Of a DNA stretch of 64,000 nucleotides, positions 12,017-41,198 are shown piece by piece. The position numbers and the translations under genes are program-made. Numbering within the stretch: position 1 is the first letter of the stretch; every line of letters starts with the position of its first letter. Source of the DNA: Sinorhizobium americanum (lineage in GTDB: Bacteria; Pseudomonadota; Alphaproteobacteria; Rhizobiales; Rhizobiaceae); assembly GCF_001651855.1 (NCBI RefSeq), contig NZ_LNQC01000076.1, forward strand, positions 262,572-326,571. The letters are read 5' to 3'. Under the pieces are notes generated by a model, which saw nothing but the letters and a program-made list of their open reading frames with translations, searched no databases and was not told the origin of the DNA.

Positions 12017-12017
12017 G

Positions 12018-24006: not shown

Positions 24007-24045
24007 GCAGTTATGATGTGTTTTGAGAGAATATATCATGACTGC
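24007..24045. promoter_or_regulatory. Long inverted repeat between the LacI and desaturase genes
   Basis: GCAGTTATGAT (24007-24017) and ATCATGACTGC (24035-24045) pair at 10 of 11 positions with a 17-base spacer. Its place between a LacI gene and its divergent operon makes it an operator candidate, possibly bound by two dimers or at offset half-sites. Confidence 0.4.
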
Positions 24046-24125
24046 ATTGAGAGCTGGCAAAAGTCAACTTATTCTCCTTGCATCAGATGAAGGCGCAATC
24101 GGAAGCGCTCTTCGGGAGGCAGGGA

Positions 24126-25211: not shown

Positions 25212-25260
25212 GCGCGACGAAGACCCGGCAATCAAAACACTTAATCGAATGGAGGAAACC

Positions 25261-25578
25261 ATGAGCTCGAACTGGGTCGAGGTCTGTGCGGCCGACGAAA
25301 TCGACGAGGAAGACGTCATTCGTTTCGACCATGAAGGCCGCACTTTCGCGGTTTATCGCAGCCCCGAAGACGAATATTTCGCCACGGACGGGCTCTGCAC
25401 GCATGAGCAGATCCACCTCGCCGACGGGCTGGTGATGGACGACATCATCGAATGTCCGAAGCACAACGGCCGCTTCAACTACAAGACCGGCCAGGCCAAG
25501 GGTGCGCCCGTCTGCGTCAATCTCAGGACCTATCCGGTCAAGGTCGAGGCCGGCAGCGTCTTTATCGCGATTTCCTGA
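25261..25578 (+). CDS. Rieske-type [2Fe-2S] ferredoxin (MocE-like)
   Basis: A 105-residue soluble Rieske protein. Cluster ligands are CTH near residue 46 and CPKH near 65, the C-x-H...C-x-x-H pattern of bacterial Rieske ferredoxins. It has no membrane anchor. The ATG at 25261 has GGAGGAAACC upstream, and the gene lies 49 bases after the desaturase stop. It should carry electrons from the FAD reductase to the di-iron oxygenase. Confidence 0.9.
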   Translation: MSSNWVEVCAADEIDEEDVIRFDHEGRTFAVYRSPEDEYFATDGLCTHEQIHLADGLVMDDIIECPKHNGRFNYKTGQAKGAPVCVNLRTYPVKVEAGSVFIAIS

Positions 25579-25616
25579 GGCCGCGGCCTGACGTTCAGGG
25601 GCGAGGGGAGGAGAAT

Positions 25617-26843: not shown

Positions 26844-26891
26844 CGGCCGCCGCAGTTCGCCCCCTTTAATAAGATTCATCCGGAGATTTCC

Positions 26892-27713
26892 ATGAAACAC
26901 CGTCGCCCGACCGTTGCCGATCTCTTGTCGATCAAGGGCAAGCGGCAACTCACCATGCTGCGCGTCGTGACGCTGGAGGAGGCGGAAGCTGCCGAAAAAG
27001 CCGGCATCGACCTCGTATCCGTTCCGCCGGCGCTGCTGGGACCCGAATTCCGCGAGGCGGCACCGACGGTCTTTGCCTTTCCCGGCCTCGAATATGGCGA
27101 CTTTGTCACCGCCGAAGACTATCTGCGCGGCGCGTTCCAGGCGATGCGCGCGGGCGGCGATGCCGTCTATTGCGCCGCCGGCCTTTCGACGGTCAAGCGA
27201 CTGCGCGAGGAAGGCATCCCTGTCTGCGGCCATGTGGGGCTGATCCCGTCCAAGGCCACCTGGACCGGCGGCTTTCGCGCCGTCGGCAAGACGGCAGCGA
27301 GCGCGCTCGAGATCTGGCGCCAGGTGAAGGCGCTCGAAGAGGCAGGCGCGTTCGCGGCCGAGATCGAGGTCGTGCCCGGAGAAGTGGCGGCCGCGATCTC
27401 CGAGCGCACGTCGCTCTTGATGCTCTCCATGGGAGCGGGCACCGGATGCGATGCCCAATATCTCTTTGCCGACGACGTGCTCGGGCAGAACCGCGGCCAT
27501 TATCCCCGCCATGCCAAGGTCTATCGCGACTTTGCCGCCGAATTCGAGCGGCTGCAGCAGGAGCGTATCGCCGCCTTCCGCGAATATGCCGAGGATGTCC
27601 GCTCCGGTGCCTATCCGGAGAAGGCACATCTGGTCGGCATCGAGCCGATGGAGTTGGAGGAATTCCTCGGCAGGATCGATACGTCGGAGCGTGCGGCATT
27701 CCGCGCAAGATGA
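26892..27713 (+). CDS. Divergent PanB (ketopantoate hydroxymethyltransferase) paralogue
   Basis: A 273-residue protein clearly of the PanB fold: GHVGLIPS at 113-120, GGFRAVGKT at 126-133, ALEEAGAFAAEIEVVP at 147-162 (general-base Glu retained at about 159), and GAGTGCDAQYLFADDVLG near 181-198. The N-terminal active-site elements are not conserved. The GDS-type metal Asp site is replaced by VPPA (44-47), and the VKLEGG lysine becomes AVYCAAG with Tyr93. PanB uses methylene-tetrahydrofolate. In an oxygenase/PurU operon this paralogue may handle folate-bound or free formaldehyde rather than make ketopantoate; that is inference. Confidence 0.75.
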   Translation: MKHRRPTVADLLSIKGKRQLTMLRVVTLEEAEAAEKAGIDLVSVPPALLGPEFREAAPTVFAFPGLEYGDFVTAEDYLRGAFQAMRAGGDAVYCAAGLSTVKRLREEGIPVCGHVGLIPSKATWTGGFRAVGKTAASALEIWRQVKALEEAGAFAAEIEVVPGEVAAAISERTSLLMLSMGAGTGCDAQYLFADDVLGQNRGHYPRHAKVYRDFAAEFERLQQERIAAFREYAEDVRSGAYPEKAHLVGIEPMELEEFLGRIDTSERAAFRAR

Positions 27714-27855
27714 TGGCGACAGCGCCGCTGCGTCGTTTCAGACGCAAAAAGGTCGCTGCAGCACTTTCAATTGCTGCAGGAATTATCCTTTAATTGGCTC
27801 GGTCTAAGGAAACGATGGGCGCAGCGCCCCAAGATGCGACAGCTAAGGACGAATG

Positions 27856-28740
27856 ATGCACAGCTATGTCTTGACGGTAACCTGCCAATCCACCCGCGGC
27901 ATCGTCGCGGCGCTATCCGCCTATCTCGCCGAACAGGGCTGCAACATCGTCGACAGCTCGCAATTCGACGACCTCGAAACCGGCCTTTTCTTCATGCGCA
28001 TCTCCTTTATCTCGGAAGAGGGCGTCGGCCGTACTGCACTCGAGGAAGGGCTGAAACCGATCGCGGAGAAATTCGCCATGGAAACGGCGCTCCATGACCA
28101 GTCGGAGCGCACCAAGGTGCTGTTGATGGTGTCGCGTTTCGGTCATTGCCTGAACGACCTGCTTTACCGCTGGAAGATCGGGGCGCTGCCGATCGACATC
28201 GTCGGCGTGGTCTCCAATCACTTCGATTACCAGAAGGTGGTCGTCAACCACGACATTCCCTTCCACCACATCAAGGTGACGAAGGAGAACAAGCCGAAGG
28301 CTGAGGCGCAACTGCTGGAGTTCGTCGAGCAGACCGGCGCCGAGCTGATCGTGCTCGCCCGCTACATGCAGGTGCTGTCGGATGCGTTGTGCAAGCAGAT
28401 GTCGGGGCGGATCATCAACATCCACCATTCCTTCCTGCCGTCGTTCAAGGGCGCCAACCCCTACAAGCAGGCCTATGAGCGCGGCGTCAAGCTGATCGGC
28501 GCGACGGCCCACTACGTCACCGCCGATCTCGACGAAGGCCCGATCATCGAGCAGGACATCGCCCGCATCACCCATGCGCAGTCGGCCGAGGACTATGTGT
28601 CGATCGGCCGCGACGTCGAGAGCCAGGTGCTGGCGCGCGCCGTGCATGCCCATATCCACCACCGCACCTTCATCAACGGCAACCGCGTCGTGGTGTTCCC
28701 GCCGAGCCCGGGGAGCTACGCGTCGGAGCGAATGGGCTGA
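27856..28740 (+). CDS. purU: Formyltetrahydrofolate deformylase
   Basis: A 294-residue enzyme with an N-terminal ACT domain (VLTVTCQSTRGIVAALSAYLAEQGCNI) and a C-terminal formyltransferase-like domain. The catalytic Asn-His-Asp set lies in INIHHSFLPSFKGANPY and the following HYVTADLDEGPII. It hydrolyses 10-formyl-tetrahydrofolate to formate and tetrahydrofolate. The ATG at 27856, six bases after AAGGA, is preferred to the adjacent ATG at 27853. Following a demethylase-type operon it would dispose of one-carbon units as formate. A strong terminator ends the transcript. Confidence 0.9.
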   Translation: MHSYVLTVTCQSTRGIVAALSAYLAEQGCNIVDSSQFDDLETGLFFMRISFISEEGVGRTALEEGLKPIAEKFAMETALHDQSERTKVLLMVSRFGHCLNDLLYRWKIGALPIDIVGVVSNHFDYQKVVVNHDIPFHHIKVTKENKPKAEAQLLEFVEQTGAELIVLARYMQVLSDALCKQMSGRIINIHHSFLPSFKGANPYKQAYERGVKLIGATAHYVTADLDEGPIIEQDIARITHAQSAEDYVSIGRDVESQVLARAVHAHIHHRTFINGNRVVVFPPSPGSYASERMG

Positions 28741-28849: not shown

Positions 28850-28881
28850 TTGACTTCCCGGTATTATGGCATACCATACTA
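28850..28881 (+). promoter_or_regulatory. Promoter with overlapping GntR-type operator for the DUF1185 operon
   Basis: TTGACT (28850-28855) with a possible -10 TACCAT (28872-28877) 16 bases on. Over the -10 lies TATTATGG-CATA-CCATACTA (28862-28881), a dyad with one mismatch. The same dyad, perfect, is in front of the GntR gene at 39299-39318. The location over the -10 predicts repression. The first gene starts at 28909. Confidence 0.6.
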
Positions 28882-28908
28882 TGTAATAAGATATTGAAGG
28901 AGGCGGCG

Positions 28909-29511
28909 ATGCCCATCGAAATTCGCAAGACCCTGCTGCAGGTGGAGACGACACTGGTCGAAGGCGGCAAGTCTGCGCCGGTGCCGCTGAAGCTCTATTC
29001 GGCAATCGCCGTCGTGAAGAACCCTTGGGCGGGCGCGGGCTACGTCGACAATCTGAAGCCGGAAATTCACGCCGCTGCCCCGGTCCTCGGCGAGTTGCTG
29101 ACGAAGATGATCATCGACGCCGTCGGCTCGGGCGAGGCGGTCGAGGCCTACGGCAAGTCTGCCATCGTCGGTCTCGATGGCGAGATCGAGCACGCCTCGG
29201 CGTTGATCCACACGCTCCGATTCGGCAATCATTACCGCCAGGCCGTCGGCGCCAAATCCTACCTTGCCTTCTGCAATACGCGTGGACCGGCAAACGCGCC
29301 CTTGATGATCCCGCTCATGGATAAGAACGACGAAGGGCGTCGCTCCCATTATCTCACCATCCAGACCGCCGTCCCCGATGCGCCGGCGGCAAACGAGATC
29401 GTCGTTGCGCTTGGCGCCTCGGTCGGTGGACGTCCGCATCACAGAATCGGCGACCGCTATCAGGATCTGAAGGATCTCGGTCAGGACGTTGCCAACCCGG
29501 CAGGCGTTTGA
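28909..29511 (+). CDS. DUF1185 (amino acid synthesis family) protein
   Basis: A 200-residue protein of PF06684 type: IRKTLLQVETTLVEGGK at the N-terminus, YSAIAVVKNPWAGAGYVDNL, GEAVEAYGKSAIVGLDGEIEHASALIHT near 80-110 and SVGGRPHHRIGDRYQDL near the C-terminus. Solved structures of the family have a chorismate-mutase-like fold, but no reaction is established. Conserved polar residues in AYGKSAIVG and HHRIGDR suggest an enzyme. AAGGAGG precedes the ATG. It opens a catabolic operon controlled by a GntR-type operator. Confidence 0.8.
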   Translation: MPIEIRKTLLQVETTLVEGGKSAPVPLKLYSAIAVVKNPWAGAGYVDNLKPEIHAAAPVLGELLTKMIIDAVGSGEAVEAYGKSAIVGLDGEIEHASALIHTLRFGNHYRQAVGAKSYLAFCNTRGPANAPLMIPLMDKNDEGRRSHYLTIQTAVPDAPAANEIVVALGASVGGRPHHRIGDRYQDLKDLGQDVANPAGV

Positions 29512-29534
29512 CGTTTCTTTATTGGACCGTGACG

Positions 29535-30362
29535 ATGCTTCAGTCAGAGCGAACGGAATTTGCAGGTCTGGGTGCCAGACGCGAGCGTACTGCGCATGGC
29601 GCCGCCTATGTGGAGACCGGCCATGGCGAACCGCTTGTCCTCATCCACGGAGTCGGCATGCGGCTCGAGGCCTGGGCACCGCAGGTCGCCGCCTTGTCCG
29701 ACCGGTGGCGGGTCATCGCCGTCGACATGCCGGGCCATGGCAAGAGCGACAGGCTCGATCCGGGCGCGAGGCTCGAGGATTTCGTCGCCTGGCTGCGTGT
29801 CTTTTTTGATGACCTCAAGCTGGACCGCGTCAGTCTTGCCGGACATTCGATGGGCGCCTTGATCGCCGGTGGCGCGGCCGTGACCTTTGGTGCGTGCATC
29901 CGCCGGGTGGCGCTTCTGAATGGCGTATACTTGCGCGATGCCGATGCGAAGGCGGCGGTTGTCGCCCGGGCCGAGATGATCGGCAAGGGCGCTGTCGATG
30001 TCGACGGGCCGCTGAAGCGCTGGTTCGGCGACAGTAGCGAAACCGCTTCGGTCTATGAACTGACGCGAGGCTGGTTGCAGGCCGTCGATCCTGAAGGCTA
30101 TGCGACGGCCTATAGCGCCTTTGCGAATGGCGATGCCATCTATGCGGCACGCTGGTCCGAGGTTGGTTGTCCGGCCCTGTTTCTGACCGGCTCGGAGGAC
30201 CCGAACTCAACACCGGAAATGGCGCGCGCCATGGCCGCCGCAGCGCTTTGCGGCTGGGCGCGGATTATCGAAGGGCACCGCCACATGGTCAATCTGACGG
30301 CGCCGGACGCGGTCAATGCGATCCTCGAGGACTGGCTCTCAAAGGAAGGGGAGAAGTCATGA
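29535..30362 (+). CDS. Alpha/beta hydrolase
   Basis: A 275-residue serine hydrolase. The oxyanion HGVG (residues about 44-47) is followed by the nucleophile elbow GHSMG near 111, the acid in LFLTGSEDPNSTP near 220 and the histidine in EGHRHMVNL near 245. The frame is open from 29508, but ATG 29535 is the first normal start; Shine-Dalgarno support is weak, so coupling to the upstream gene is likely. In this operon it may open a lactone or ester made by the flavin monooxygenase. There is no signal peptide. Confidence 0.85.
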   Translation: MLQSERTEFAGLGARRERTAHGAAYVETGHGEPLVLIHGVGMRLEAWAPQVAALSDRWRVIAVDMPGHGKSDRLDPGARLEDFVAWLRVFFDDLKLDRVSLAGHSMGALIAGGAAVTFGACIRRVALLNGVYLRDADAKAAVVARAEMIGKGAVDVDGPLKRWFGDSSETASVYELTRGWLQAVDPEGYATAYSAFANGDAIYAARWSEVGCPALFLTGSEDPNSTPEMARAMAAAALCGWARIIEGHRHMVNLTAPDAVNAILEDWLSKEGEKS

Positions 30363-31291
30363 CAACAGCTTCTTTCGACCCCCGCGCGTTGCGCGACGCT
30401 TTCGGTTCTTTCATGACCGGCGTGACAGTGGTCACGGCGAACGACGCGTCGGGACGGCCCATCGGTTTCACGGCGAACTCCTTCGCCTCTGTATCCATCG
30501 ATCCGCCGCTCCTGCTCGTCTGTCTGGCGAAAACCTCCCGCAATTTCGCGACGATGACTACGGCCAAGGGTTTTGGCGTCAACGTTCTCTCCGAAAAGCA
30601 GATGACAGTCTCCAACACCTTCGCCAAACCGGTGGAGGACCGCTTCGCCGCGGTCGAATGGAAGAATGGACCGCATGGTGCGCCGATTCTTGCGGGCGTC
30701 AGCGCGTGGTTCGATTGTTCGACGAACGAGATCGTCGACGCCGGTGACCACGCCATCCTGATCGGTCGCGTCGAGGCCTTCGAGAACGGCGCCATGGCCG
30801 GACTCGGCTTCGCCCGCGGCAGCTACATCACGCCGGGCCTAGCCAGCAAGGCGGTCTCGGCCGCCGCCGAGGGTGTGCCGCTGATCGCCGCCGTCGTCGA
30901 GCGGGACGGCGCGGTCCTGTTGATTTCCGAGGCGGATGGCCGCTGGCGCCTGCCGCAGATGGAGCTCAAGGGCGGCGAGCCGCTGGCGGCGCTGCAAGAT
31001 TATCTGACGGACGCGACGGGATTGGCGGTCGAGGTCGGCTTCCTCTACTCGGTCTACGACAACAAGGCGACCGGTCACCAGCATATCGTCTACCGCGCCG
31101 TTGCCGAGCCCGGCGACACCAAGGCGGGGCGGTTCGTCCCGATTGCGGACCTGCCGCTCGACGCGATGGACAACTCCGCCACGGCCGATCTCCTGAGGCG
31201 CTTTGCCGCCGAGAGCGCGCTCGGCAACTTCGGCGTTTACGTCGGGGATGAGAAACAGGGCAAGGTTCACCCCTATGCCAGAAAGGCCTGA
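30359..31291 (+). CDS. Flavin reductase fused to a degenerate Nudix domain
   Basis: A 310-residue protein that starts in an ATGA overlap with the hydrolase. Residues 1-160 are the FMN-binding split-barrel flavin reductase type (FGSFMTGVTVVTA, FTANSFASVSIDPPLLLVC, RNFATM). Residues 172-290 match a Nudix fold (PLIAAVVERDGAVLLIS, WRLPQMELKGGEPLAALQDYLTDATGL). The Nudix box is altered: the REL glutamate is Tyr and the EE pair is DA, so metal-dependent hydrolysis is unlikely and a sensor or flavin-nucleotide binding role is more plausible. It should feed reduced FMN to the neighbouring luciferase-like oxygenase. Confidence 0.8.
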   Translation: MTTASFDPRALRDAFGSFMTGVTVVTANDASGRPIGFTANSFASVSIDPPLLLVCLAKTSRNFATMTTAKGFGVNVLSEKQMTVSNTFAKPVEDRFAAVEWKNGPHGAPILAGVSAWFDCSTNEIVDAGDHAILIGRVEAFENGAMAGLGFARGSYITPGLASKAVSAAAEGVPLIAAVVERDGAVLLISEADGRWRLPQMELKGGEPLAALQDYLTDATGLAVEVGFLYSVYDNKATGHQHIVYRAVAEPGDTKAGRFVPIADLPLDAMDNSATADLLRRFAAESALGNFGVYVGDEKQGKVHPYARKA

Positions 31292-31294
31292 CCC

Positions 31295-32335
31295 ATGAAA
31301 TTCTCGCTTTTCGTGCATCTCGAGCGGCTCAATCCCGGACAGTCGGACGAGAGCCTCTATCGCGAGTTCATCCAGCTTTGTGAAATCGCCGACAAGGGCG
31401 GCATGCATGCGATCTGGACCGGTGAGCACCATGGCATGAGCTTCACGATCGCGCCCAATCCCTTCCTCAGCCTCGCCGATCTCGCGCGCCGCACCAAGAA
31501 TGTCCGGCTCGGCACAGGCACGGTGATTGCGCCCTTCTGGCATCCCATCAAGCTCGCCGGGGAAGCGGCGATGACCGACATCATCAGCGACGGTCGGCTC
31601 GACATCGGCATTGCCCGCGGCGCCTATAGTTTCGAATACGAGCGGCTCGCCCCCGGATTGGACGCTTGGGGCGCCGGCCAGCGGATGCGCGAGCTCATCC
31701 CCGCCATCAAGGGCCTGTGGGAAGGCGACTACGCGCATGAGAGCGAGTTCTGGACCTTTCCGTCGACGACCTCGGCGCCGAAGCCGATGCAGGCGCCGCA
31801 TCCGCCGATCTGGGTGGCGGCGCGCGATCCCAACAGCCATGAATTCGCGGTCGCCAATGGCTGCAACGTACAGGTCACACCGCTTTGGAACGGCGACGGC
31901 GAGATCGCCAGCCTGATGGAGCGTTTCGAGGCGGCCTGCGCCAAGAACCCGGAGATCAAGCGCCCGAAGATCATGCTGCTGCAGCACGCCTATGTCGGCA
32001 CGGACGAGGCTGATCTCGAACAGGCCGCCAGGGAGATGAGCGTCTACTACAACTATTTCTTCGCCTGGTTCAAAAACGAAAAGCCTATCCGGCAGGGGCT
32101 GATCAAGACGATTTCCGAAGAGGAAATGGCTGAGAATGCGCTGATCTCGCCCGAGGTGATGCGCAAGAACCTCGCGGTCGGCACGGCCGATCAAGTCATC
32201 GCCCGCCTGAAGACCTATCAGGCGATGGGTTACGACGAATATTCCTTCTGGATCGATACCGGCATGAGCTTCGAGCGCAAGAAGGCCTCGCTTGAGCGCT
32301 TCATCGCCGACGTCATGCCGGCATTTGCGGAGTAG
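31295..32335 (+). CDS. LLM-class flavin-dependent monooxygenase
   Basis: A 346-residue luciferase-like TIM-barrel enzyme. Typical elements are FIQLCEIADKGGMHAIWTGEHHGM near 25-50, VRLGTGTVIAPFWHPIKLAGEAAMTDIISDGRLDIGIARGAY near 70-110, and PPIWVAARDPNSHEFAVANGCNVQVTP near 170. It takes reduced FMN from the reductase encoded just upstream and adds one oxygen atom to a substrate, by hydroxylation, Baeyer-Villiger oxidation or desulfonation. With a hydrolase and an aldehyde dehydrogenase nearby, ring or C-N bond oxidation is plausible. The gene follows after 3 bases. Confidence 0.85.
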   Translation: MKFSLFVHLERLNPGQSDESLYREFIQLCEIADKGGMHAIWTGEHHGMSFTIAPNPFLSLADLARRTKNVRLGTGTVIAPFWHPIKLAGEAAMTDIISDGRLDIGIARGAYSFEYERLAPGLDAWGAGQRMRELIPAIKGLWEGDYAHESEFWTFPSTTSAPKPMQAPHPPIWVAARDPNSHEFAVANGCNVQVTPLWNGDGEIASLMERFEAACAKNPEIKRPKIMLLQHAYVGTDEADLEQAAREMSVYYNYFFAWFKNEKPIRQGLIKTISEEEMAENALISPEVMRKNLAVGTADQVIARLKTYQAMGYDEYSFWIDTGMSFERKKASLERFIADVMPAFAE

Positions 32336-32340
32336 GGCAC

Positions 32341-33804
32341 ATGCAGCGCTTCCAGTGCTATATCGATGGCGAATTTGCAGACGGCGAAGCCCGCTTCGAA
32401 AGCATCGACCCGGCGACGGGTGCCGCCTGGGCGGAGATGCCGGAAGCGCGCGAAGCCGATGTCAATCGCGCTGTCGAGGCGGCCCATAGGGCCCTTTACG
32501 CGGGACCGTGGTCCAAGCTGACCGCCACCCAGCGAGGCAAGCTTCTTTACAAGCTTGCCGACCTCGTCGCCGAGAATGCCCAGAAACTGGCCGAACTGGA
32601 GACCCGGGACACGGGCAAGATCATCCGCGAGACCTCGGCGCAGATCGCCTATGTCGCGGAATATTATCGCTATTACGCCGGGATCGCCGACAAGATCGAG
32701 GGTTCCTATCTGCCGATCGACAAGCCGGACATGGATGTCTGGCTGCGCCGCGAACCGATCGGCGTCGTCGCCATGGTCGTGCCGTGGAACAGCCAGCTGT
32801 TCCTGTCGGCGGTGAAGATCGGCCCGGCGCTGGCGGCCGGCTGCACCATGGTGGTGAAGGCCTCGGAAGACGGGCCGGCGCCGCTCCTTGAATTTGCCCG
32901 GCTCATCTGCGAGGCGGGCTTCCCGGCCGGCGTCGTCAATATCATCACCGGCTTCGGCCCCGCCTGCGGTGCGGCGCTCAGCCGTCATCCGAAGGTCGAT
33001 CATATCGCCTTTACCGGCGGGCCGGAGACGGCGCGTCATGTGGTACGCAATTCGGCGGAGAACCTCGCCTCGACCTCGCTTGAGCTCGGTGGCAAGTCGC
33101 CCTTCATCGTCTTTGCCGATGCCGATCTTGAGAGTGCGGCCAATGCCCAGGTCGCCGGTATCTTCGCGGCGACCGGCCAGAGCTGCGTCGCCGGCTCGCG
33201 GTTGATTGTCGAGACAAGCGTCAAGGACCGCTTCCTCGACATCCTCAAGGCAAAGGCCGAGGCGGTCCGGATCGGCAGCCCTCTCGACATGGCGACCGAG
33301 GTCGGGCCACTCGCGACTCGCCGTCAGCGAGACCATATCGAGGCGCTCGTCGACCGCTCGCTCGCCGTCGGCGCCAGATTGGTCACAGGCGGCCGGGCAG
33401 CCGAGGGCGCCGGCTACTACTATCGGCCGACAATTCTCGATTGCGACGGCAGTTCTTCGCCCTCGCTCGAAGAGGAATTCTTCGGGCCGGTCCTCTCGGT
33501 GGTTTCCTTCGACACCGAAGCGGAGGCGCTCGCCACCGCCAACAATACCCGCTACGGCCTTGCGGCCGGCCTCTTCACCCGCGATCTCACCCGCGCCCAT
33601 CGCCTGATGAAAGGGATCCGCGCCGGGATCGTCTGGGTCAACACCTACCGGGCGGTCTCGCCGATCGCCCCCTTCGGCGGTTTCGGGCTCTCCGGCCACG
33701 GCCGCGAGGGCGGCATGGCGGCCGCGCTTGACTTTACACGGACGAAGACCGTGTGGCTGAGGACGTCAAACGAGCCGATCCCCGATCCTTTCGTGATGCG
33801 GTGA
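32341..33804 (+). CDS. NAD(P)-dependent aldehyde dehydrogenase
   Basis: A 487-residue ALDH. The cofactor region is VVPWNSQLFLSAVKIGPALAAG near 145 and FTGGPETARHV near 225. The catalytic Glu is in LELGGKSP near 250 and the nucleophilic Cys in ATGQSCVAGSR near 283. The tail has EEFFGPVLSV and the GGFGLSGHGREGG loop. It oxidises an aldehyde to an acid or CoA-free carboxylate. It sits five bases after the monooxygenase stop and would take an aldehyde released by that pathway. Confidence 0.92.
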   Translation: MQRFQCYIDGEFADGEARFESIDPATGAAWAEMPEAREADVNRAVEAAHRALYAGPWSKLTATQRGKLLYKLADLVAENAQKLAELETRDTGKIIRETSAQIAYVAEYYRYYAGIADKIEGSYLPIDKPDMDVWLRREPIGVVAMVVPWNSQLFLSAVKIGPALAAGCTMVVKASEDGPAPLLEFARLICEAGFPAGVVNIITGFGPACGAALSRHPKVDHIAFTGGPETARHVVRNSAENLASTSLELGGKSPFIVFADADLESAANAQVAGIFAATGQSCVAGSRLIVETSVKDRFLDILKAKAEAVRIGSPLDMATEVGPLATRRQRDHIEALVDRSLAVGARLVTGGRAAEGAGYYYRPTILDCDGSSSPSLEEEFFGPVLSVVSFDTEAEALATANNTRYGLAAGLFTRDLTRAHRLMKGIRAGIVWVNTYRAVSPIAPFGGFGLSGHGREGGMAAALDFTRTKTVWLRTSNEPIPDPFVMR

Positions 33805-33809
33805 CGGCG

Positions 33810-34136
33810 ATGTTCTACGAAATCCGCACCTATCGGCTGAAGAACGGCGCCATCCCCGCCTACCTGAAGGTGGTCGAGGAAGAGGGCATCGCCATCCAGA
33901 AGAAGCATCTCGGTGAGCTCGTCGCCTATTTCTTCTCCGAGATCGGACCGATCAACGAGATTGTCCACATCTGGGCCTACCGGAGCCTCGACGATCGCGA
34001 GAGGTGCCGCGCCGCGCTCATGGAAGACCCGGACTGGCGGGCTTTCCTCCCCAAGATACGCGACCTGATAGAAGTCGCGGAGAACAAGATCATGAAGGCG
34101 GCGCGCTTTTCGCCGACAGGCGGCAGCGCGTCATAG
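33810..34136 (+). CDS. NIPSNAP family protein
   Basis: A 108-residue ferredoxin-like (dimeric alpha/beta-barrel) protein starting MFYEIRTYRLKNGAIPAYLK, with IHIWAYRSLDDRERCRAALMEDPDW near 50-75. This is the NIPSNAP/ABM-like fold, found as small accessory enzymes or monooxygenases in catabolic operons. The exact role is unknown. The ATG at 33810 is five bases after the aldehyde dehydrogenase stop, so it is part of the operon. Confidence 0.8.
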   Translation: MFYEIRTYRLKNGAIPAYLKVVEEEGIAIQKKHLGELVAYFFSEIGPINEIVHIWAYRSLDDRERCRAALMEDPDWRAFLPKIRDLIEVAENKIMKAARFSPTGGSAS

Positions 34137-34173
34137 AACAACCAAGCAAAACCGGGTCACGGAGCAAGGGAAC

Positions 34174-35184
34174 ATGAAGAAGATATTCGCTTTGGCGGCT
34201 GCGGCCGCAATTATCGCAACGGCTATGCCGGCAACAGCCGCCGATCTTGTCTTTTCGAGCTGGGGCGGCACGACGCAGGATGCGCAGAAAATCGCCTGGG
34301 CCGAAAAATTCACGGAGCAGACCGGCATCAATGTCCTCCAGGACGGGCCGACCGACTACGGCAAACTGAAGGCGATGGTCGAGGCGAACGCCGTCACCTG
34401 GGACGTCGTCGACGTTGAGGGCGACTACGCCGCCCAGGCCGGCAAGAACGGCCTGCTCGAAAAGCTCGACTTCTCCGTCATCGACAAATCGAAGCTCGAT
34501 CCGCGCTTCGTCACCGACTATTCGGTCGGCAGCTTCTATTATTCCTTCGTCATCGGCTGCAACAAGGACGCGGTCGAGGCCTGCCCGAAGAGCTGGGCGG
34601 ACCTCTTCGACATCGAGAAGTTCCCCGGCAAGCGCGCCTTCTACAAGTGGTCGGCCCCGGGCGTCATCGAGGCGGCGCTGCTTGCCGACGGCGTGCCCGC
34701 CGACAAGCTCTATCCGCTCGATCTTGACCGCGCCTTCAAGAAGCTCGACACGATCAAGCCGGAGATCATTTGGTGGACCGGCGGCGCGCAGTCGCAGCAG
34801 CTCCTCGCCTCCGCCGAGGCCCCCTTCGGCAGCCTCTGGAACGGCCGCATGACGGCGCTTGCCCAGAGCGGCATCAATGTCGAGACCTCCTGGGAGCAGA
34901 ACATCACCGCCGCCGACTCCCTCGTCGTGCCGAAGGGCGCGAAGAACAAGGAAGCCGCGATGCAGTTCATCGCGCTTGCCACTTCGCCTCAGGCGCAGGC
35001 CGATCTCGCCAAGGCCACCGGCTACGCGCCGATCAACCTGGATTCGCCCAAGGTGATGGACCCGGAATTGGCGAAGACATTGCCGGATGCGCAGACAGCG
35101 AGCCAGGTCAATGCCGACATGAGCTACTGGGCAGAGAACCGCGACGCAATCGGCGAGCGCTGGTACGCCTGGCAGGCAGAGTAA
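34174..35184 (+). CDS. PotD-like ABC transporter substrate-binding protein
   Basis: A 336-residue periplasmic protein. The signal peptide MKKIFALAAAAAIIATAMPATAA is cut before DLVFSSWGG. The mature part shows the spermidine/putrescine-type SBP pattern: SWGGTTQDAQKIAWAEKFTEQTG, then WDVVDVEGDYAAQAGKNGLLEKLD, and an IKPEIIWWTGGAQSQQLL segment near 190 forming the binding cleft. The ligand may be an amine but is unproven. It links to the catabolic operon upstream with a 37-base gap, suggesting that it imports the operon's substrate. Confidence 0.88.
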   Translation: MKKIFALAAAAAIIATAMPATAADLVFSSWGGTTQDAQKIAWAEKFTEQTGINVLQDGPTDYGKLKAMVEANAVTWDVVDVEGDYAAQAGKNGLLEKLDFSVIDKSKLDPRFVTDYSVGSFYYSFVIGCNKDAVEACPKSWADLFDIEKFPGKRAFYKWSAPGVIEAALLADGVPADKLYPLDLDRAFKKLDTIKPEIIWWTGGAQSQQLLASAEAPFGSLWNGRMTALAQSGINVETSWEQNITAADSLVVPKGAKNKEAAMQFIALATSPQAQADLAKATGYAPINLDSPKVMDPELAKTLPDAQTASQVNADMSYWAENRDAIGERWYAWQAE

Positions 35185-35192
35185 ATCAAGGA

Positions 35193-35223
35193 GGCGGGGA
35201 GGGCGCAGCCCGTACTCCCCGCC
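35193..35223 (+). terminator. Stem-loop after the PotD-like gene
   Basis: GGCGGGGAG (35193-35201) and CTCCCCGCC (35215-35223) form a perfect 9-bp stem with a 13-base loop and no T-tract. It lies 8 bases after the binding-protein stop and before the permease genes, a typical arrangement for raising binding-protein abundance. Confidence 0.6.
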
Positions 35224-35279
35224 GATCCGGCGCAGGGCACGAGGAGGTCCCTCGCGCAGCTGAAATGGGAGAGACAGCT

Positions 35280-36155
35280 ATGTTGTCGCGCACCGACGCG
35301 AGGGCGCCAGGATCGAAGGCGCCTGCATATCGCCTGCGACTCACCGACTTCGATCTGACCTTGCCGGCGCTCGGCCTGCTGGTCCTGTTCTTCGTCGTGC
35401 CGGTCGCCATCCTGTTGGCGCGGAGCGTCTCGGAGCCCGTGCCGGGCCTCGGCAACTATGCCGAACTGCTGGGCTCATCCACCTATCTCCGGATATTCGC
35501 AAATACCTTCATCGTTTCCGGCCTAGTCACGCTCGTGTCGCTGCTGATCGGCTTTCCCGTCGCCTGGGCGCTCGCCATCATGCCGAGCCGCCTCGCGTCT
35601 GTCGTCTTCGCCATCCTGCTTTTGTCGATGTGGACCAACCTGCTGGCGCGCACCTATGCCTGGATGGTGCTGTTGCAGCGGACCGGCGTCATCAACAAGA
35701 TGCTCATCGCATTGGGCCTGATCGACAAGCCGCTTCCGCTCGTCAACAACCTGACGGGGGTGACGATCGGGATGACCTATATCATGCTGCCCTTCATCAT
35801 CCTGCCGCTCTATGGCGTCATCCGCAAGATCGATCCGGCGATCCTGCAGGCGGCGGCGCTCTGCGGCGCCAATCGCTGGCAGGCGCTCGTGCGCGTGCTT
35901 CTGCCCTTGGCGATGCCCGGCATGGCGGCCGGCGCGCTCATGGTCTTCGTGATGTCGCTCGGCTACTTCGTCACTCCGGCGCTGCTCGGCGGCACGGCGA
36001 ACATGATGCTTGCCGAACTCATCGCGCAGTTCGTCCAGTCTCTCGTCAATTGGGGCATGGGCGGCGCGGCGGCCCTGGTGTTGCTGGTCGTGACGCTGGC
36101 GCTCTATGCGGTGCAGCTCCGCTTCTTCGGCACCGACCGTATGGGAGGGCGCTGA
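35280..36155 (+). CDS. PotB-like ABC transporter permease
   Basis: A 291-residue permease with six predicted helices, beginning near LTLPALGLLVLFFVVPVAILLARS. The EAA loop is near residue 205 (DPAILQAAALCGANRWQALVRVLLPLAMPG). It pairs with the PotC-like permease that starts one base after its stop. The ATG at 35280 follows GGGAGAGACAGCT. It belongs to the polyamine/opine/Fe-type family importers. Confidence 0.88.
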   Translation: MLSRTDARAPGSKAPAYRLRLTDFDLTLPALGLLVLFFVVPVAILLARSVSEPVPGLGNYAELLGSSTYLRIFANTFIVSGLVTLVSLLIGFPVAWALAIMPSRLASVVFAILLLSMWTNLLARTYAWMVLLQRTGVINKMLIALGLIDKPLPLVNNLTGVTIGMTYIMLPFIILPLYGVIRKIDPAILQAAALCGANRWQALVRVLLPLAMPGMAAGALMVFVMSLGYFVTPALLGGTANMMLAELIAQFVQSLVNWGMGGAAALVLLVVTLALYAVQLRFFGTDRMGGR

Positions 36156-36156
36156 C

Positions 36157-36957
36157 ATGCTCCTGAATTTCGACCGTCTCGGCTGGTGGAAGCTGGTCCT
36201 CATCGGCATCACCTTGCTGACAGCCGCCTTCCTGCTCTTGCCCATCCTGTTCATTGCGGCGCTCTCCTTCGGCTCGTCGCAATGGCTGATTTTTCCGCCG
36301 CCCGGCTGGACGCTGAAATGGTATCAGGAGCTGCTTGCCGATCCGCGCTGGCTGGAGTCCGCCTGGACGAGCTTCCAGATCGCGATCATCGTGACAGTGC
36401 TTTCGGTGCTGCTCGGTCTCGTCACCTCCTTCGGTCTGACCCGCGGGCGTTTCATGTTCCGCGAAGCGCTTAAGGCGCTGTTCCTGACGCCGATGATCCT
36501 GCCCGTCGTCGTTCTTGCCGTGGCGCTCTACGCCTTCTTCCTGCAGATCGGCCTCAATGGCACGCTGACCGGCTTCGTCATTTCGCATCTGGTGCTGGCG
36601 CTGCCCTTCTCGATCCTGTCGATCACCAATGCGCTCGAAGGGTTCGACAAATCGATCGAAGACGCCGCCGTTCTGTGCGGCGCCTCCCCGTTCGAGGCGA
36701 AGATCCGGGTGACGCTGCCGGCGATCAGCCACGGCATCTTCTCGGCGGCGATCTTCTCGTTCCTCACCTCCTGGGACGAAGTGGTCGTGGCGATCTTCAT
36801 GGCGAGCCCAACGCTGCAGACGCTGCCCGTCAAGGTCTGGGCGACGTTGCGGCAGGATCTGACCCCGGTCGTTGCGGCCGCCTCCACCCTTCTCATCCTG
36901 CTCACCGTGCTTTTGATGGTGCTCGTCGCCCTGGTTCGCAAAGGATTGAAATCATGA
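36157..36957 (+). CDS. PotC-like ABC transporter permease
   Basis: A 266-residue permease. Six helices start at WWKLVLIGITLLTAAFLLLPILFIAALS. The family segment PPPGWTLKWYQELL is near 45, and the EAA loop ...SIEDAAVLCGASPFEAKIRVTLPAISHG near 175. The start at 36157 is separated from the previous stop by one base. It overlaps the ATPase start downstream in an ATGA junction. Confidence 0.88.
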   Translation: MLLNFDRLGWWKLVLIGITLLTAAFLLLPILFIAALSFGSSQWLIFPPPGWTLKWYQELLADPRWLESAWTSFQIAIIVTVLSVLLGLVTSFGLTRGRFMFREALKALFLTPMILPVVVLAVALYAFFLQIGLNGTLTGFVISHLVLALPFSILSITNALEGFDKSIEDAAVLCGASPFEAKIRVTLPAISHGIFSAAIFSFLTSWDEVVVAIFMASPTLQTLPVKVWATLRQDLTPVVAAASTLLILLTVLLMVLVALVRKGLKS

Positions 36958-38036
36958 GCAAACCCTTTCTGCAAATCCGCGGCATCCGCAAGGAATATGG
37001 ACCCGTAACCGCCGTTCACGACGTCAATCTCGATGTGGCGCAGGGGGAATTCCTGACATTCCTCGGCCCTTCGGGATCAGGCAAGAGCACGACGCTCTAC
37101 ATTCTCGCCGGCTTCGAGGCCCCGACGCGCGGCGACATCCTGCTCAACGGGGAAACGCTGCTGTCGACGCCGTCGCACAAGCGCAATATCGGCATGGTGT
37201 TCCAGCGCTACACGCTGTTTCCGCATCTCACCGTCGGCGAGAACATCGCCTTTCCCCTGAAGGTCAGGCGGCTGCCGAAGGCCGAGATCGATGCCAAGGT
37301 GCGCGACATGCTGAAGCTCGTGCGGCTCGAAGGCTTCGAGGACCGCAAGCCGGCGCAGATGTCCGGCGGCCAGCAGCAGCGCGTCGCGCTGGCGCGGGCT
37401 CTTGCCTATGATCCTCCTGTGTTGCTGATGGACGAGCCGCTTTCGGCGCTCGACAAGAAACTGCGCGAGGAGATCCAGCACGAGATCCGCCGCATCCACC
37501 AGCAGACGGAAGTGACGATCCTCTATGTCACACACGACCAGGAGGAAGCGCTCAGGCTCTCCGACCGAATCGCCGTGTTTTCAAAGGGGGTGATCGACCA
37601 GATCGGCACCGGCCCGGAACTCTACGCCAATCCGGCAACCCGCTTCGTCGCCGAGTTCATCGGCGACAGCGATTTCCTGCCCTGCGATCTGGTGACGGCG
37701 GCAAACGGCAAAGCGGAGATCGCGCTCGCCGGTACGACGGTCATCCCCAACGTGCCGGTGCACGGCAAGCCGGTTGCCGGCGGCAAGGCGGCGCTGATGC
37801 TGCGGCCGGAACGCTTGCGCCTGATGCGATCGGCGCCGGGCGGCGCGACCGCAGTTCCCGTCACTATCAGCGACATCACCTTTCTCGGCAACAACATCCA
37901 TGTCGCAACCGAGACCGCCAGGGGCGACGCGCTGGCCGTCCGCCTTCCCTTCGGTCACGAGGCGATTTCCAGCCTCAGCCGCGGCGACAGCGTCTGGCTC
38001 GGCTTCGATCCTGCGTCCGCCCACGTCTTCTGCTGA
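36954..38036 (+). CDS. PotA-like ABC transporter ATP-binding protein
   Basis: A 360-residue ATPase: Walker [11 protein letters not shown]-loop [20 protein letters not shown], signature [15 protein letters not shown] and Walker [18 protein letters not shown]. The C-terminal ~110 residues form the TOBE domain ([12 protein letters not shown]). It energises the PotD/PotB/PotC-like importer. The start overlaps the permease stop by 4 bases (ATGA). The last gene of the substrate-linked transporter. Confidence 0.92.
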
Positions 38037-38053
38037 GCGGCGGACGCCCCGCT

Positions 38054-38176
38054 TTAGTCTTCAGATAGTTCTTCCGCTGTGGCCGCGACTGGTGCATTCC
38101 CCAGGGAATTATCGGCATATTTGAAAGCAAGTATGCTGATAACTGACGCGATGATAGCGATCAGGACGAGACGCAT
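38054..38176 (-). CDS. 40-residue single-pass membrane protein
   Basis: MRLVLIAIIASVISILAFKY forms one transmembrane helix followed by a polar acidic tail (NSLGNAPVAATAEELSED). The Shine-Dalgarno sequence is weak (GGGAAA), but an EcfG-type promoter lies 33 bases upstream, which is the main support. No function is known. Confidence 0.5.
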   Translation of the reverse strand: MRLVLIAIIASVISILAFKYADNSLGNAPVAATAEELSED

Positions 38177-38208
38177 GAAGGTTTCCCGGCATCGTTGCAA
38201 TGCCTAGC

Positions 38209-38234
38209 AACTCACCCGGAGACCCCGTTGTTCC
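38209..38234 (-). promoter_or_regulatory. EcfG/RpoE2-type promoter for the 40-residue membrane protein
   Basis: Minus strand: GGAAC (38234-38230), 17-base spacer, AGTT (38212-38209); ATG at 38176. The -10 first base is A rather than C. Confidence 0.45.
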
Positions 38235-38249
38235 AGCGCGAACGATGTC

Positions 38250-38387
38250 TCACCGGTAGTTGGTGGGAACCAGTGCCGCCCTGTTCGGCGGCGCCTCTAC
38301 CTCCGTTCGATCGACAGCAAGGATGCTCATCACGAGAGAGACGAGGACGAGTATCAGCGCCATGAATGCGATGCCTGCCTTATCCAT
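38250..38387 (-). CDS. 45-residue single-pass membrane protein
   Basis: MDKAGIAFMALILVLVSLVMSILAV is one transmembrane helix, followed by a polar tail ending TNYR. It resembles its neighbour at 38054 in size and layout (basic start, Ile/Leu/Val helix with SILA). Ribosome-binding support is weak and no EcfG-like site is seen in front of it. It could be a decayed tandem copy. Confidence 0.4.
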   Translation of the reverse strand: MDKAGIAFMALILVLVSLVMSILAVDRTEVEAPPNRAALVPTNYR

Positions 38388-38523
38388 CCCCCATCATGAT
38401 CGCGGGAATGCGAGCAAAACGGGGCGCCGGCGGCCAAGAATTGTACCGGTGCGCATCATAGTTAATTTCGTCTGAACGAACTGAGGCCTCTTTAATTTTG
38501 CGCCAGCTCTGGGCGACACCCTG

Positions 38524-39219
38524 TTACCGTGCTTTTGCGCCTTGCTGCTCCGCCAGGAGCGCCTCGGCGATCGCCGCCGCATTCGTGACATGGACATTTG
38601 CCGCCTCATAGGCCGCCGCGCCGTCGCCGGCTTTGATCGCGTCGATGATCTTCTGCATCTGGGCCGGACCCTGCTTGTCGCGGTCGGGCGTCTTGATCGT
38701 CATGGAGCGCAGATGATTGATCCTCGCGGTGATCGAATTGACGATGCCCCAGGCGACATGGCGGCCGGAATTCTCGAACAGGGTGCGGTAGAAATCCGTC
38801 GTGGCGCTGAGAACCGCCGCGAGCTCGTTGGCGGCATAGGCGGCCCGGATGCGCGCAAGGATACGTTCGAGCTCGGCCACGACCGCGGGGTCCTTTTGTA
38901 TGGCGCAGGCCTTGGCGGCTATACCTTCGAGCACGCCGCGGATCTCATAGATCTGCCGGGCCTCCTCGGGGGTTGTCTCGGCGACGATCGGGCCGCGGTT
39001 CTGCTGGATGGCCACGAGGCCTTCGGATTCCAAGTGCCGCAGCACCTCACGGACGATCGTACGGCTGACGCCGAGCTGGTCGCACAGGTCGCGTTCGACA
39101 AGCCGTTCGCCGGCCCTGAAATGCATGTTGACGATAGCGTCGCGCATCTTTTCCAGGGCAAGCTCGCGCAGGGTCTTCTCCGGTCGGAGTACTCGCATCG
39201 GCTGTTCAGACGCGCTCAT
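38524..39219 (-). CDS. GntR-family regulator (FCD domain) of the DUF1185 locus
   Basis: A 231-residue regulator. The winged helix (GERLVERDLCDQLGVSRTIVREVLRHLESEGLV) is followed by an FCD ligand domain (IYEIRGVLEGIAAKACA, DFYRTLFENSG, MQKIIDAIKAGDGAAAYEAANVHV). AAAGGAAG precedes the ATG at 39219; the frame continues to 39285. A perfect 8+8 dyad about 80 bases upstream matches the dyad at the DUF1185 promoter 10 kb away, so this protein probably represses both itself and that operon. Confidence 0.88.
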   Translation of the reverse strand: MSASEQPMRVLRPEKTLRELALEKMRDAIVNMHFRAGERLVERDLCDQLGVSRTIVREVLRHLESEGLVAIQQNRGPIVAETTPEEARQIYEIRGVLEGIAAKACAIQKDPAVVAELERILARIRAAYAANELAAVLSATTDFYRTLFENSGRHVAWGIVNSITARINHLRSMTIKTPDRDKQGPAQMQKIIDAIKAGDGAAAYEAANVHVTNAAAIAEALLAEQQGAKAR

Positions 39220-39298
39220 GGGGCTGCTTCCTTTCCGCCAGCACCTGTGGCAACTGCGCGATCTCGATCCAGTCCTTGGTGGCACGTGTCGAGCCGCA

Positions 39299-39318
39299 TA
39301 TTATGGGATACCATAATA
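39299..39318 (-). promoter_or_regulatory. Perfect operator dyad upstream of the GntR gene
   Basis: TATTATGG-GATA-CCATAATA, a perfect inverted repeat. The DUF1185 operator at 28862-28881 is the same except for one arm mismatch and the spacer. Predicted binding site for the adjacent FCD-type GntR regulator. Confidence 0.65.
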
Positions 39319-39451: not shown

Positions 39452-40426
39452 TCACCTGGCGGAAAGCGACTCGATGAGCGCGGCGATGTAGCCATAGCAG
39501 AAGGCGAAGGCAACGCCGGTCGGGTCGCGGCCGCTGATCGTCGGGACGTGGTCGGGCATCACCATGTATTGGTATCCGACCTCGTGATAGATCTTCAGCG
39601 AGCGCACCATGTCCATGTCGCCCTCGTCGGGGAAGGTTTCCATGAAGGAAAGCTTGCCGCCGCGGATGTTGCGGAAGTGCAGATTGAAGATCTTGCCGCG
39701 CGTGCCGAACCAGCGGATGATCTCGTCGATCTCCTCGCGCGGATTGTCGAGCATCTCGCCGATCGAACCCTGGCAAAAATTCAGGCCGTGATAGGGGCTC
39801 TCGTGCATCTGCACGAATTTTTTGAGGCCCTCGACGGTGCCGAGCACGCGCGTCACGCCGCGGTAGCCGGGCGGCGCGTAGGGATCGTGGGGATGGCAGG
39901 CGATGCGCACGCGATTGCTCGTCGCAACAGGCACCACCCGCTCCAGGAAATAGTCGATCCGCTCCCAGTTCTCGTCCTCCGACAGAACGCCGGCAAGGCC
40001 CGGCGCAGCGCTCCGGTCGACCCGCTCCCAGCGAAAGGCCTCGTTCATCGAGCCGCCGCGGCCGCGTTCCATCTCGCTGCGGGGAATGCCGATCAGGTTC
40101 AGATTGTACTTGGCCGCCGGAATGCCGGCGCGGGCGCAGTTCTCGATCATCCGGCAGACCGCGTCGATCTGGCGATCGCGCTCCGGTCCGGCCAGCAGGA
40201 TATCGGGATAGGAGGCTTTCTCGATCGGCTTCGAGGGAAGGGGAAGCTGGATCATGTCGAGCACCAGGCCGAAGCTCTCGACGTGGTCGCGATGCCGTTC
40301 CAAATCCTCCAGGGTCCAGCTTGCCGGATCGCCCGGCGGATCGGCCGAGATATTCTTGACGCCAAGTTGGGCGTAGACGCGGTAATCCTCGTCGTCGCGC
40401 GCTGCGACCTGCGTTCCTACATACAT
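39452..40426 (-). CDS. uxuA: Mannonate dehydratase
   Basis: A 324-residue TIM-barrel enzyme that dehydrates D-mannonate to 2-keto-3-deoxy-D-gluconate in glucuronate breakdown. Family motifs are visible: NLNLIGIPR near 105, RIACHPHDPYAPPG near 170 with metal-binding His, LNFCQGSIGEM near 215 and LHFRNIRGGKLSFMETFPDEGDMDM near 250. AAGGAG precedes the ATG at 40426. It carries its own TATGACATA-type operator. Shorter than E. coli UxuA (about 394) but normal for this branch. Confidence 0.88.
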   Translation of the reverse strand: MYVGTQVAARDDEDYRVYAQLGVKNISADPPGDPASWTLEDLERHRDHVESFGLVLDMIQLPLPSKPIEKASYPDILLAGPERDRQIDAVCRMIENCARAGIPAAKYNLNLIGIPRSEMERGRGGSMNEAFRWERVDRSAAPGLAGVLSEDENWERIDYFLERVVPVATSNRVRIACHPHDPYAPPGYRGVTRVLGTVEGLKKFVQMHESPYHGLNFCQGSIGEMLDNPREEIDEIIRWFGTRGKIFNLHFRNIRGGKLSFMETFPDEGDMDMVRSLKIYHEVGYQYMVMPDHVPTISGRDPTGVAFAFCYGYIAALIESLSAR

Positions 40427-40457
40427 GGACAGCTCCTTCTGAATGCCTTCAGCCCAT

Positions 40458-40477
40458 TTCATATGACATAATATGAA
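40458..40477 (-). promoter_or_regulatory. TATGACATA operator in front of uxuA
   Basis: TTCATAT-GACATA-ATATGAA is a 7+7 dyad that contains TATGACATA (40462-40470). The same nonamer is at 41280-41288 before the binding-protein gene. Predicted target of the GntR protein encoded at 40500-41198. Confidence 0.55.
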
Positions 40478-40499
40478 TTCCGGGGACCTGTCGAGCGGA

Positions 40500-41198
40500 T
40501 TATTGCTCGGCGAGGCGCCGGTAGCGACGCTGGCTGGCGATGATATGTTTGCGCATCGCCTGCCTAGCGCGTTCCGGATCCTGGTCGGCAATGGCTGCGA
40601 GGATCTCGACATGTTCCGCCTGGACGCCGAGCAAATAATCTCTGTCGGCAGCCTCCGGCAATGTCGTGAACTGGCTGCGGGGAATGGCGCGCGGCCCGAA
40701 TTGGCGCATGACATCGAGGTAGAAGCGGTTGTTGGTGGCTGCGGCGATGGCCATATGGAACTCGAAATCGGCCTCGACGGTCGGCTTCCCCTCCACAATC
40801 AGCTGCGCCATTTTTCTATTGGCCGCGCCGATCGCCGCTTCCTGCTCGGCCGTCCTGCGATACGCGGCGATTGCCGCGGCTTCGCTCTCGCAAGCCAGCC
40901 GGAACTCGAGAAGCTCGAGCGTCTCCGGGATGCTCCTGATCTCCACCGGGCTCAGCGCAAAGCGCTGGCTTGCCTTCGGGTCGCTGACAAAAACGCCCTT
41001 GCCCTGGATGGGGCGGACGTAGCCTGCGGCGCGCAGGTCGGCGATTGCCTCGCGGACCACCGTGCGGCTCACGCCGAAGCTTGCCTCCAATTGTGGCTCG
41101 GTCGGCAATTGGTCGCCTTCCTTCAGCCTGCCGGCTTCGATCTGCCGGCGCAGTTCGTCGATTACCTGTTGCGCCAGTCTCTGTCGTCCGCCCGCCAT
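40500..41198 (-). CDS. GntR-family (FadR-like) regulator of the uronate locus
   Basis: A 232-residue regulator: winged helix near residues 25-60 (DQLPTEPQLEASFGVSRTVVREAIADLRAAGYV) and an FCD domain with DFEFHMAIAAATNN near 130 and EHVEILAAIADQDPERARQAMRKHI near the C-terminus. It lies between uxuA and the divergent transporter genes. The shared TATGACATA dyads in front of uxuA and of the binding-protein gene make it the likely hexuronate-responsive regulator. Confidence 0.85.
   Translation of the reverse strand: MAGGRQRLAQQVIDELRRQIEAGRLKEGDQLPTEPQLEASFGVSRTVVREAIADLRAAGYVRPIQGKGVFVSDPKASQRFALSPVEIRSIPETLELLEFRLACESEAAAIAAYRRTAEQEAAIGAANRKMAQLIVEGKPTVEADFEFHMAIAAATNNRFYLDVMRQFGPRAIPRSQFTTLPEAADRDYLLGVQAEHVEILAAIADQDPERARQAMRKHIIASQRRYRRLAEQ

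Follow-up and report, generated by a model that had tools for sequence, protein, structure and literature searches.

A flavin monooxygenase cluster in Sinorhizobium americanum

The DNA analysed here is a 64,000-nucleotide stretch of the Sinorhizobium americanum genome (hereafter the window), in which genes encoding a DUF1185 protein, an alpha/beta hydrolase, a flavin reductase, a luciferase-like monooxygenase (LLM), an aldehyde dehydrogenase (ALDH), a NIPSNAP-family protein and a PotD/B/C/A-like ATP-binding cassette (ABC) importer follow one another at positions 28909-38036 (Table 1). No two neighbouring genes in this run are more than 95 bp apart, which makes a single transcript likely. Beyond its far end lies the gene for an FCD-type GntR regulator, GntR1, which combines a GntR winged helix (PF00392, 3.7e-16) with an FCD domain (PF07729, 1.2e-25). 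A first-pass annotation made from the letters of the sequence had seen here a two-component flavin monooxygenase and an importer serving the oxygenation, hydrolysis and aldehyde oxidation of one substrate, a logic that the comparative evidence below supports. Its gene list also held against Pfam and NCBIfam, every named family being recovered except the Nudix half of a proposed flavin reductase-Nudix fusion, to which we return.

Two near-identical palindromes of 20 bp, O1 (TATTATGGCATACCATACTA, symmetric at 16 of 20 positions) and O2 (TATTATGGGATACCATAATA, symmetric at 18 of 20), precede the operon and the GntR1 gene, respectively. Both lie where the first-pass annotation had placed them, 10 kb apart, and in the whole 6.65-Mb genome they are the only sites with one mismatch or fewer; six further places have three mismatches, and the backwards control found none.

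Table 1. Genes and putative control elements of the S. americanum cluster (percentages are protein identities; A. baylyi, Acinetobacter baylyi; S. meliloti, Sinorhizobium meliloti).
Feature	Position	Strand	Remarks
-35-like TTGACT of tgn operon promoter	28850-28855		just before O1
Operator dyad O1, before tgn operon	28862-28881	none	overlaps predicted -10 region
tgnF-like, DUF1185/AA_synth (PF06684)	28909-29511	+	Pfam 1.3e-66; 72% to A. baylyi
tgnD-like alpha/beta hydrolase	29535-30362	+	Pfam 3.6e-23; 51% to A. baylyi
tgnA-like flavin reductase, degenerate Nudix-like C-terminal half	30359-31291	+	43% to A. baylyi, 97% of its length covered
tgnB-like luciferase-family (LLM, Bac_luciferase) monooxygenase	31295-32335	+	71% to A. 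baylyi, full length; reciprocal best hit
tgnC-like aldehyde dehydrogenase (Aldedh)	32341-33804	+	71% to A. baylyi
NIPSNAP-family protein, accessory	33810-34136	+	present in 13/88 loci
Importer periplasmic binding protein, PotD-like	34174-35184	+	92% to S. meliloti pSymA copy
ABC permease 1, PotB-like by position	35280-36155	+	BPD_transp_1 3e-12; 90% to S. meliloti pSymA copy
ABC permease 2, PotC-like	36157-36957	+	BPD_transp_1; 96% to S. meliloti pSymA copy
ABC ATPase, PotA-like	36954-38036	+	ABC_tran + TOBE_2; 85% to S. meliloti pSymA copy
FCD-type GntR regulator (GntR1), likely tgn repressor	38524-39219	-	ATG at 39219; longest reading frame from 39285
Operator dyad O2	39299-39318	none	80 bp upstream of GntR ATG

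Orthology with the trigonelline degradation genes

Trigonelline (N-methylnicotinate) is a plant betaine, and the genes for its degradation in Acinetobacter baylyi (tgn) were reportedly described, with intermediates and products, by Perchat and colleagues in 2018. Our A. baylyi reference is the type strain DSM 14961 (locus L025 in our numbering), not ADP1. Its GntR, F, D, A, B and C genes are colinear and match those of the window at 40% identity for GntR and 43-72% for the five enzymes (Table 1). Whole genomes were compared reciprocally for GntR and TgnB, the remaining enzymes being compared inside the loci only, and both proteins are reciprocal best hits: A. baylyi GntR scores 157 bits in the window genome (next 63) and 157.5 bits in the reverse direction (next 66), while the corresponding values for TgnB are 588 bits (next 135) and 589 bits (next 121). 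The DUF1185 protein thus corresponds to TgnF, the luciferase-like oxygenase to TgnB, and the hydrolase, flavin reductase and aldehyde dehydrogenase to what are presumably TgnD, TgnA and TgnC.

As for the literature, a passage of PMC7913881 treats a DUF1185 protein as homologous to TgnF, a stimulator of TgnE in the A. baylyi trigonelline pathway, one of PMC8269262 has the aromatic ring opened by TgnA/TgnB, and one of PMC11354265 names TgnB as a flavin-dependent trigonelline monooxygenase. Judged by orthology and gene order, the window genes are a rhizobial version of this known bacterial pathway for trigonelline breakdown; the pathway itself is already known, and the window cluster adds a rhizobial example. 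The statement in the first-pass annotation that no described pathway has this combination of genes must therefore be withdrawn, since the combination is that of the A. baylyi Tgn pathway, as its colinear orthologues and the passages of PMC8269262 and PMC7913881 indicate. The substrate proposed there, perhaps a cyclic amine, lactam or ketone, came near, trigonelline being an N-methylated pyridine. We rejected an undescribed lactam, ketone or cyclic-amine pathway, as both orthology and gene order point to Tgn. We also set aside an amino-acid role for DUF1185, suggested from fold and neighbours in PMC2954203, as its neighbours here are tgn genes.

The two loci share the five enzyme families in the order F-D-A-B-C, an orthologous GntR and an operator of identical type before F. 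They differ in what follows C, which in A. baylyi is an NCS1-type permease, then an open reading frame (without a Pfam match at 1e-5, but porin-like by eye) and then an ALDH of succinate-semialdehyde dehydrogenase (SSADH) type with an extra operator copy of its own upstream. In the window, by comparison, the ABC importer occupies the place of the permease, NIPSNAP is present, and the GntR gene, which has an operator copy to itself, stands at the operon's far end.

Conservation of gene order

To describe the surroundings of these genes in relatives, genome contigs were searched with a TgnB alignment headed by an Acinetobacter sequence, the best 80 of 485 relatives, A. baylyi DSM 14961 among them, being kept. 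The neighbourhood set comprises 88 loci (L015-L100, L102 and L103), whose counts describe that set only and are no unbiased sample, because similarity to TgnB governed the choice of loci and many of them are close kin. F-D-A-B-C is colinear on one strand in 83 of the 88, so that gene neighbours are conserved and not scattered, scatter being the outcome that had been named in advance as speaking against the cluster. The exceptions are L016, where F and D are partial, L033, where no A was found, L037 and L041, whose best matches to A (a flavin reductase in the case of L037) and, for L041, also to D lie at another place on the locus, and L068, where F would fall beyond the start of the contig. 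Sixty-nine loci have a GntR1-like gene at most 1.5 kb upstream of F; in 11 it sits at another place on the locus, and in eight none was found. Accessory genes are more variable: an NCS1 permease occurs in 27 of the 88, an ABC binding protein in 25 and NIPSNAP in 13, and an SSADH gene was identified on only 29 of the loci as fetched, so its linkage to tgn is not universal.

Of 247 Rhizobiaceae genomes, counting that of the window itself, 41 gave a match with an E-value of 1e-80 or lower; in six of the 41 it was only to a distant version with 38-44% identity. D-A-B-C was recovered in 27 of the 29 4-kb loci taken from the Rhizobiaceae matches. DUF1185 was present in 14 of the 23 same-genus genomes searched as opposed to none of the 14 control genomes; the trait is thus patchy. 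One of the incomplete loci, L016, belongs to pSymA of Sinorhizobium meliloti AK57, where GntR, DUF1185 and the hydrolase give only partial matches at 8649-10839 and transposase genes are annotated upstream; the tgn operon is perhaps disrupted in AK57 itself or in its assembly.

The existence of a distant version bears on whether the window cluster might degrade another N-methylated pyridine or betaine, such as homarine, with the same types of enzyme. The DUF1185-LLM family is indeed not uniform. A cluster in Agrobacterium (L101) likewise brings together flavin reductase, ALDH, LLM, hydrolase, NIPSNAP and DUF1185, but in another order, with its LLM and DUF1185 at only 41% and 51% identity, and with a betaine-type transporter nearby. 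The importer linked to the tgn genes also varies by lineage, being of ABC type in rhizobia and an NCS1 permease in Acinetobacter. Yet the window falls in the close clade, at 71% to A. baylyi TgnB, with gene order and operator kept; its genome lacks the distant version, the next LLM being 31% identical; and homarine is, according to a passage of PMC8269262, an improbable substrate of the TgnA/TgnB system. We therefore regard another substrate as unlikely and favour trigonelline. The Agrobacterium cluster itself (Agrobacterium fabrum pAtC58C1, 7466-13255) also holds a carboxymuconolactone decarboxylase-like gene, lies near ProX-type betaine transport genes and perhaps acts on another N-methylated pyridine. 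No tgn operator was found in this cluster or at a distant DUF1185 locus (L005).

A conserved candidate operator before the tgn genes

Conservation of the palindrome was assessed in the 85 loci, drawn from alpha-, beta- and gammaproteobacteria, that had an F orthologue and enough upstream DNA. A dyad with at most five mismatches over 16 fixed positions lies within 120 bp upstream of F in 83 of these (L034 and L075 are without one), and the core ATGGTATACCAT was matched with two mismatches or fewer in 82 of the 85 upstream regions, compared with 49 of 7,980 control windows drawn from these loci, a count that includes some genuine second sites. Across the 83 dyads the core has no mismatch in 38, one in 36, two in eight and five in one. 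The information content is 1.7-2.0 bits in ten of the 12 core columns and 1.29 and 0.66 bits in the other two, but no more than 0.5 bits in the flanks (columns -40 to -12 and 21 to 59); a -35-like TTGACA lies 11 to 6 bases before the operator, with five of its six columns at 0.9-1.5 bits. The dyad thus covers the spacer and the predicted -10 region, which fits a repressor.

The position of the site relative to the regulator gene is equally regular. Of 63 divergent GntR-F pairs, 62 have the site in the interval separating the two genes. In the same-genus loci L006-L014 it precedes F in nine of nine, and wherever the GntR gene falls inside the stretch (seven of seven) a dyad with 1-3 mismatches precedes GntR as well. 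In Burkholderia, two sites stand before a second operon encoding another flavin reductase and an orthologous ABC importer. When seven whole genomes were searched with a 14-bp core at one mismatch or fewer, six had a single site, each at the tgn locus, so the regulon looks small and dedicated; the backwards control gave two sites in A. baylyi, one in each of two other genomes and none in the remaining four.

These data speak to the idea that the two dyads of the window are a chance pair, or a recent duplication without a regulatory role. A scan of the window with TATTATGGNNNNCCATAATA at three mismatches or fewer gave two matches where 0.05 were expected, a number that one of 100 shuffled windows also reached. 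Such an origin is contradicted by the footprint in three proteobacterial classes, by its near-fixed place over the promoter and by its retention after relocation of the GntR gene in Sinorhizobium fredii NGR234 (below), and we give it almost no credence. The view that O1 and O2 are a shared GntR operator, first proposed from the window alone, is instead strongly supported by the dyad before DUF1185 in relatives and before the GntR gene in Sinorhizobium, and the palindrome is most likely a well-conserved control site to which the neighbouring GntR regulator binds.

The GntR regulator and its relocation

A different regulator might nonetheless act at the dyads, for example the second FCD-type GntR (GntR2, 40500-41198) or a LacI-type protein (22937-23968), with GntR1 a mere neighbour. 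GntR2 and a mannonate-dehydratase-like gene travel with GntR1 in both S. fredii SMH12 and NGR234, and in Rhizobium indicum and Rhizobium bangladeshense a second dyad lies between GntR and F, with none found directly before GntR1. Set against this, in three proteobacterial classes the gene next to the operator is GntR1-like, as the upstream and divergent pairs counted above attest, and GntR2 had no match above 45%, the threshold used, at the loci of S. meliloti or A. baylyi. Control by another regulator seems unlikely, and GntR1 remains our candidate for the protein that reads the site.

The arrangement in S. fredii SMH12 equals that of the window, with both dyads present. In NGR234, GntR1 lies 131 kb from the operon end, accompanied by the mannonate-dehydratase-like gene and GntR2, and the dyads are 141 kb apart; the operon keeps its dyad, and the O2 counterpart is retained as in SMH12, that of NGR234 (TATTATGGTATCCCATAATA) having no mismatches and lying 77 bp before the first aligned GntR base. 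In a tree of 87 GntR sequences, almost all of them taken from tgn loci, with few outgroups and a single paralogue from the window as root, the window GntR1 falls in a 12-tip clade of tgn-locus GntRs, mostly from Sinorhizobium, with support of 0.99. The palindrome stands at both the regulator's own and its presumed target promoter in the window and in Sinorhizobium, and divergent pairs have one shared site. Adjoining GntR1 in the window (39452-41198) are the UxuA/mannonate-dehydratase-like gene and GntR2, a trio that stays together in NGR234 (L142). No description of a tgn regulator or operator was found in the literature searched, which lacked the primary tgn paper and was queried for a regulator only in part; regulator and operator are possibly new, their novelty being weakly supported.

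Trigonelline use in rhizobia

On pSymA of S. meliloti 1021 an orthologous operon, 59-96% identical and sharing the importer, is found close to nifB, nifA, a FixC-like gene and nifHDK, and in S. meliloti AK57 noeB is annotated about 7-9 kb before the operon. The pSymA arrangement, whose GntR is 63% identical to that of the window, differs from it in having GntR upstream of F and SSADH after the importer. An excerpt of PMC4207669 reports growth on trigonelline by wild-type S. meliloti and none by a strain without pSymA, from which we infer that this growth needs the tgn operon. Going by its title, Goldmann et al. (1991) dealt with a trigonelline catabolism region of S. meliloti pSymA; position and phenotype suggest that the tgn cluster is this genetically mapped locus. 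That alfalfa seeds release trigonelline is stated in the title of Phillips et al. (1992). According to a passage of PMC12489286 it is well established that rhizobia take up and catabolise stachydrine and trigonelline, which narrows what could be new about the importer; the regulon evidence suggesting that a PotDBCA-like importer carries trigonelline is possibly new.

Proposed function

We put at about 0.9 the probability that 28909-38036 is one operon for trigonelline uptake and breakdown, repressed by the FCD-type GntR. This reading is built on homology, gene order and the conservation and position of the operator, from which binding, repression, ligand and importer substrate are predicted. 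Trigonelline would be brought in by the ABC importer; TgnA would make reduced flavin, which TgnB would use with oxygen to open the pyridinium ring; and TgnC would oxidise the resulting semialdehyde or lactone, whose product TgnD would hydrolyse. The products would presumably be methylamine, formate, CO2 and succinate semialdehyde, with an unlinked dehydrogenase converting the latter to succinate in a last step assisted by TgnF (DUF1185). Oxygen-dependent ring opening by the window cluster is suggested by orthology together with the phenotype of S. meliloti lacking pSymA. The regulator would repress the operon through O1, which lies across the -10 region, and its own gene through O2, and would probably be released by trigonelline or an intermediate.

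Several observations weigh against this interpretation, beside the make-up of the locus sample and the two Rhizobium loci without a dyad before GntR. The window cluster has no linked SSADH (TgnE), and the unlinked candidates in its genome are 58%, 55%, 53% and 50% identical to the A. baylyi SSADH, so that even the best reaches only 58%; SSADH is linked at the S. meliloti and R. indicum tgn loci, and the S. meliloti relative of the A. baylyi SSADH-like ALDH scores above the NCBIfam cut-off for SSADH. Of the five enzymes, the flavin reductase (43%) is the least conserved. One divergent GntR/F pair (L079, the sole exception of the 63) has no good site, and of the four sites found with the 14-bp core in the A. 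baylyi genome two lie outside the tgn locus, at one mismatch each and unexplained, as many as in the backwards control. Finally, pSymA is a 1.35-Mb replicon, and its loss therefore does not single out the tgn cluster.

The flavin reductase C-terminal half

The TgnA-like protein matches the Protein Data Bank (PDB) entry 3rh7 across residues 1-309 (E 8.3e-117), a full-length solved relative that is labelled 'hypothetical oxidoreductase' and that we take to be S. meliloti SMa0793, on which no paper was found in the literature searched. When the C-terminal half alone was searched with phmmer it returned 3rh7 and weak matches at E 0.067-0.93, mostly to Nudix chains. On the other hand, Pfam Nudix had no match in 12 relatives at E up to 5, and the catalytic Nudix box (GX5EX7REUXEEXGU) was matched in none of 20 sequences. 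The C-terminal half thus appears Nudix-like only, and degenerate, leaving a 'Nudix fusion' weakly supported.

Neighbouring genes

Directly upstream of the tgn genes, in the window (22937-28740) as in S. fredii, are genes for a LacI-type regulator, a desaturase-like oxygenase, a Rieske ferredoxin, a ferredoxin reductase, and PanB-like and PurU-like proteins. They resemble mocDEF, and the set looks like a demethylation module with disposal of formyl-tetrahydrofolate. We considered whether the genes at 24078-28740 (desaturase/Rieske/reductase, PanB-like and PurU) are part of the pathway and rejected this, as no operator precedes them and none of them was found at the tgn loci of S. meliloti or R. 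indicum; among the loci examined, such genes lie beside tgn only in the americanum/fredii group. PurU also borders the A. baylyi locus, where it stands upstream of a sarcosine-oxidase-like gene; we assume this to be coincidence. Further away, the stretch 7226-16085 holds another FCD-type GntR, a sugar-binding/nucleotide-binding kinase-like gene and genes for an oligopeptide-type ABC importer, all on the minus strand, and after them a DHDPS-like gene on the plus strand.

Implications for rhizobial betaine use

On balance we lean towards a broader proposal, in which the FCD-type GntR is an undescribed, dedicated trigonelline-responsive repressor whose operator, in its fullest form TATTATGGTATACCATAATA, has stayed with the tgn genes in alpha-, beta- and gammaproteobacteria. 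The role of this repressor in rhizobia would be to control the use of a legume betaine from genes on symbiotic plasmids or megaplasmids, and the site could serve to assign importers and accessory genes, such as the ABC importer and NIPSNAP, to the pathway. For this cluster, the label of an unknown pathway gives way to a named pathway with a testable substrate, a candidate operator and repressor unify the tgn loci of three proteobacterial classes, and trigonelline use by rhizobia becomes open to single-gene deletion tests.

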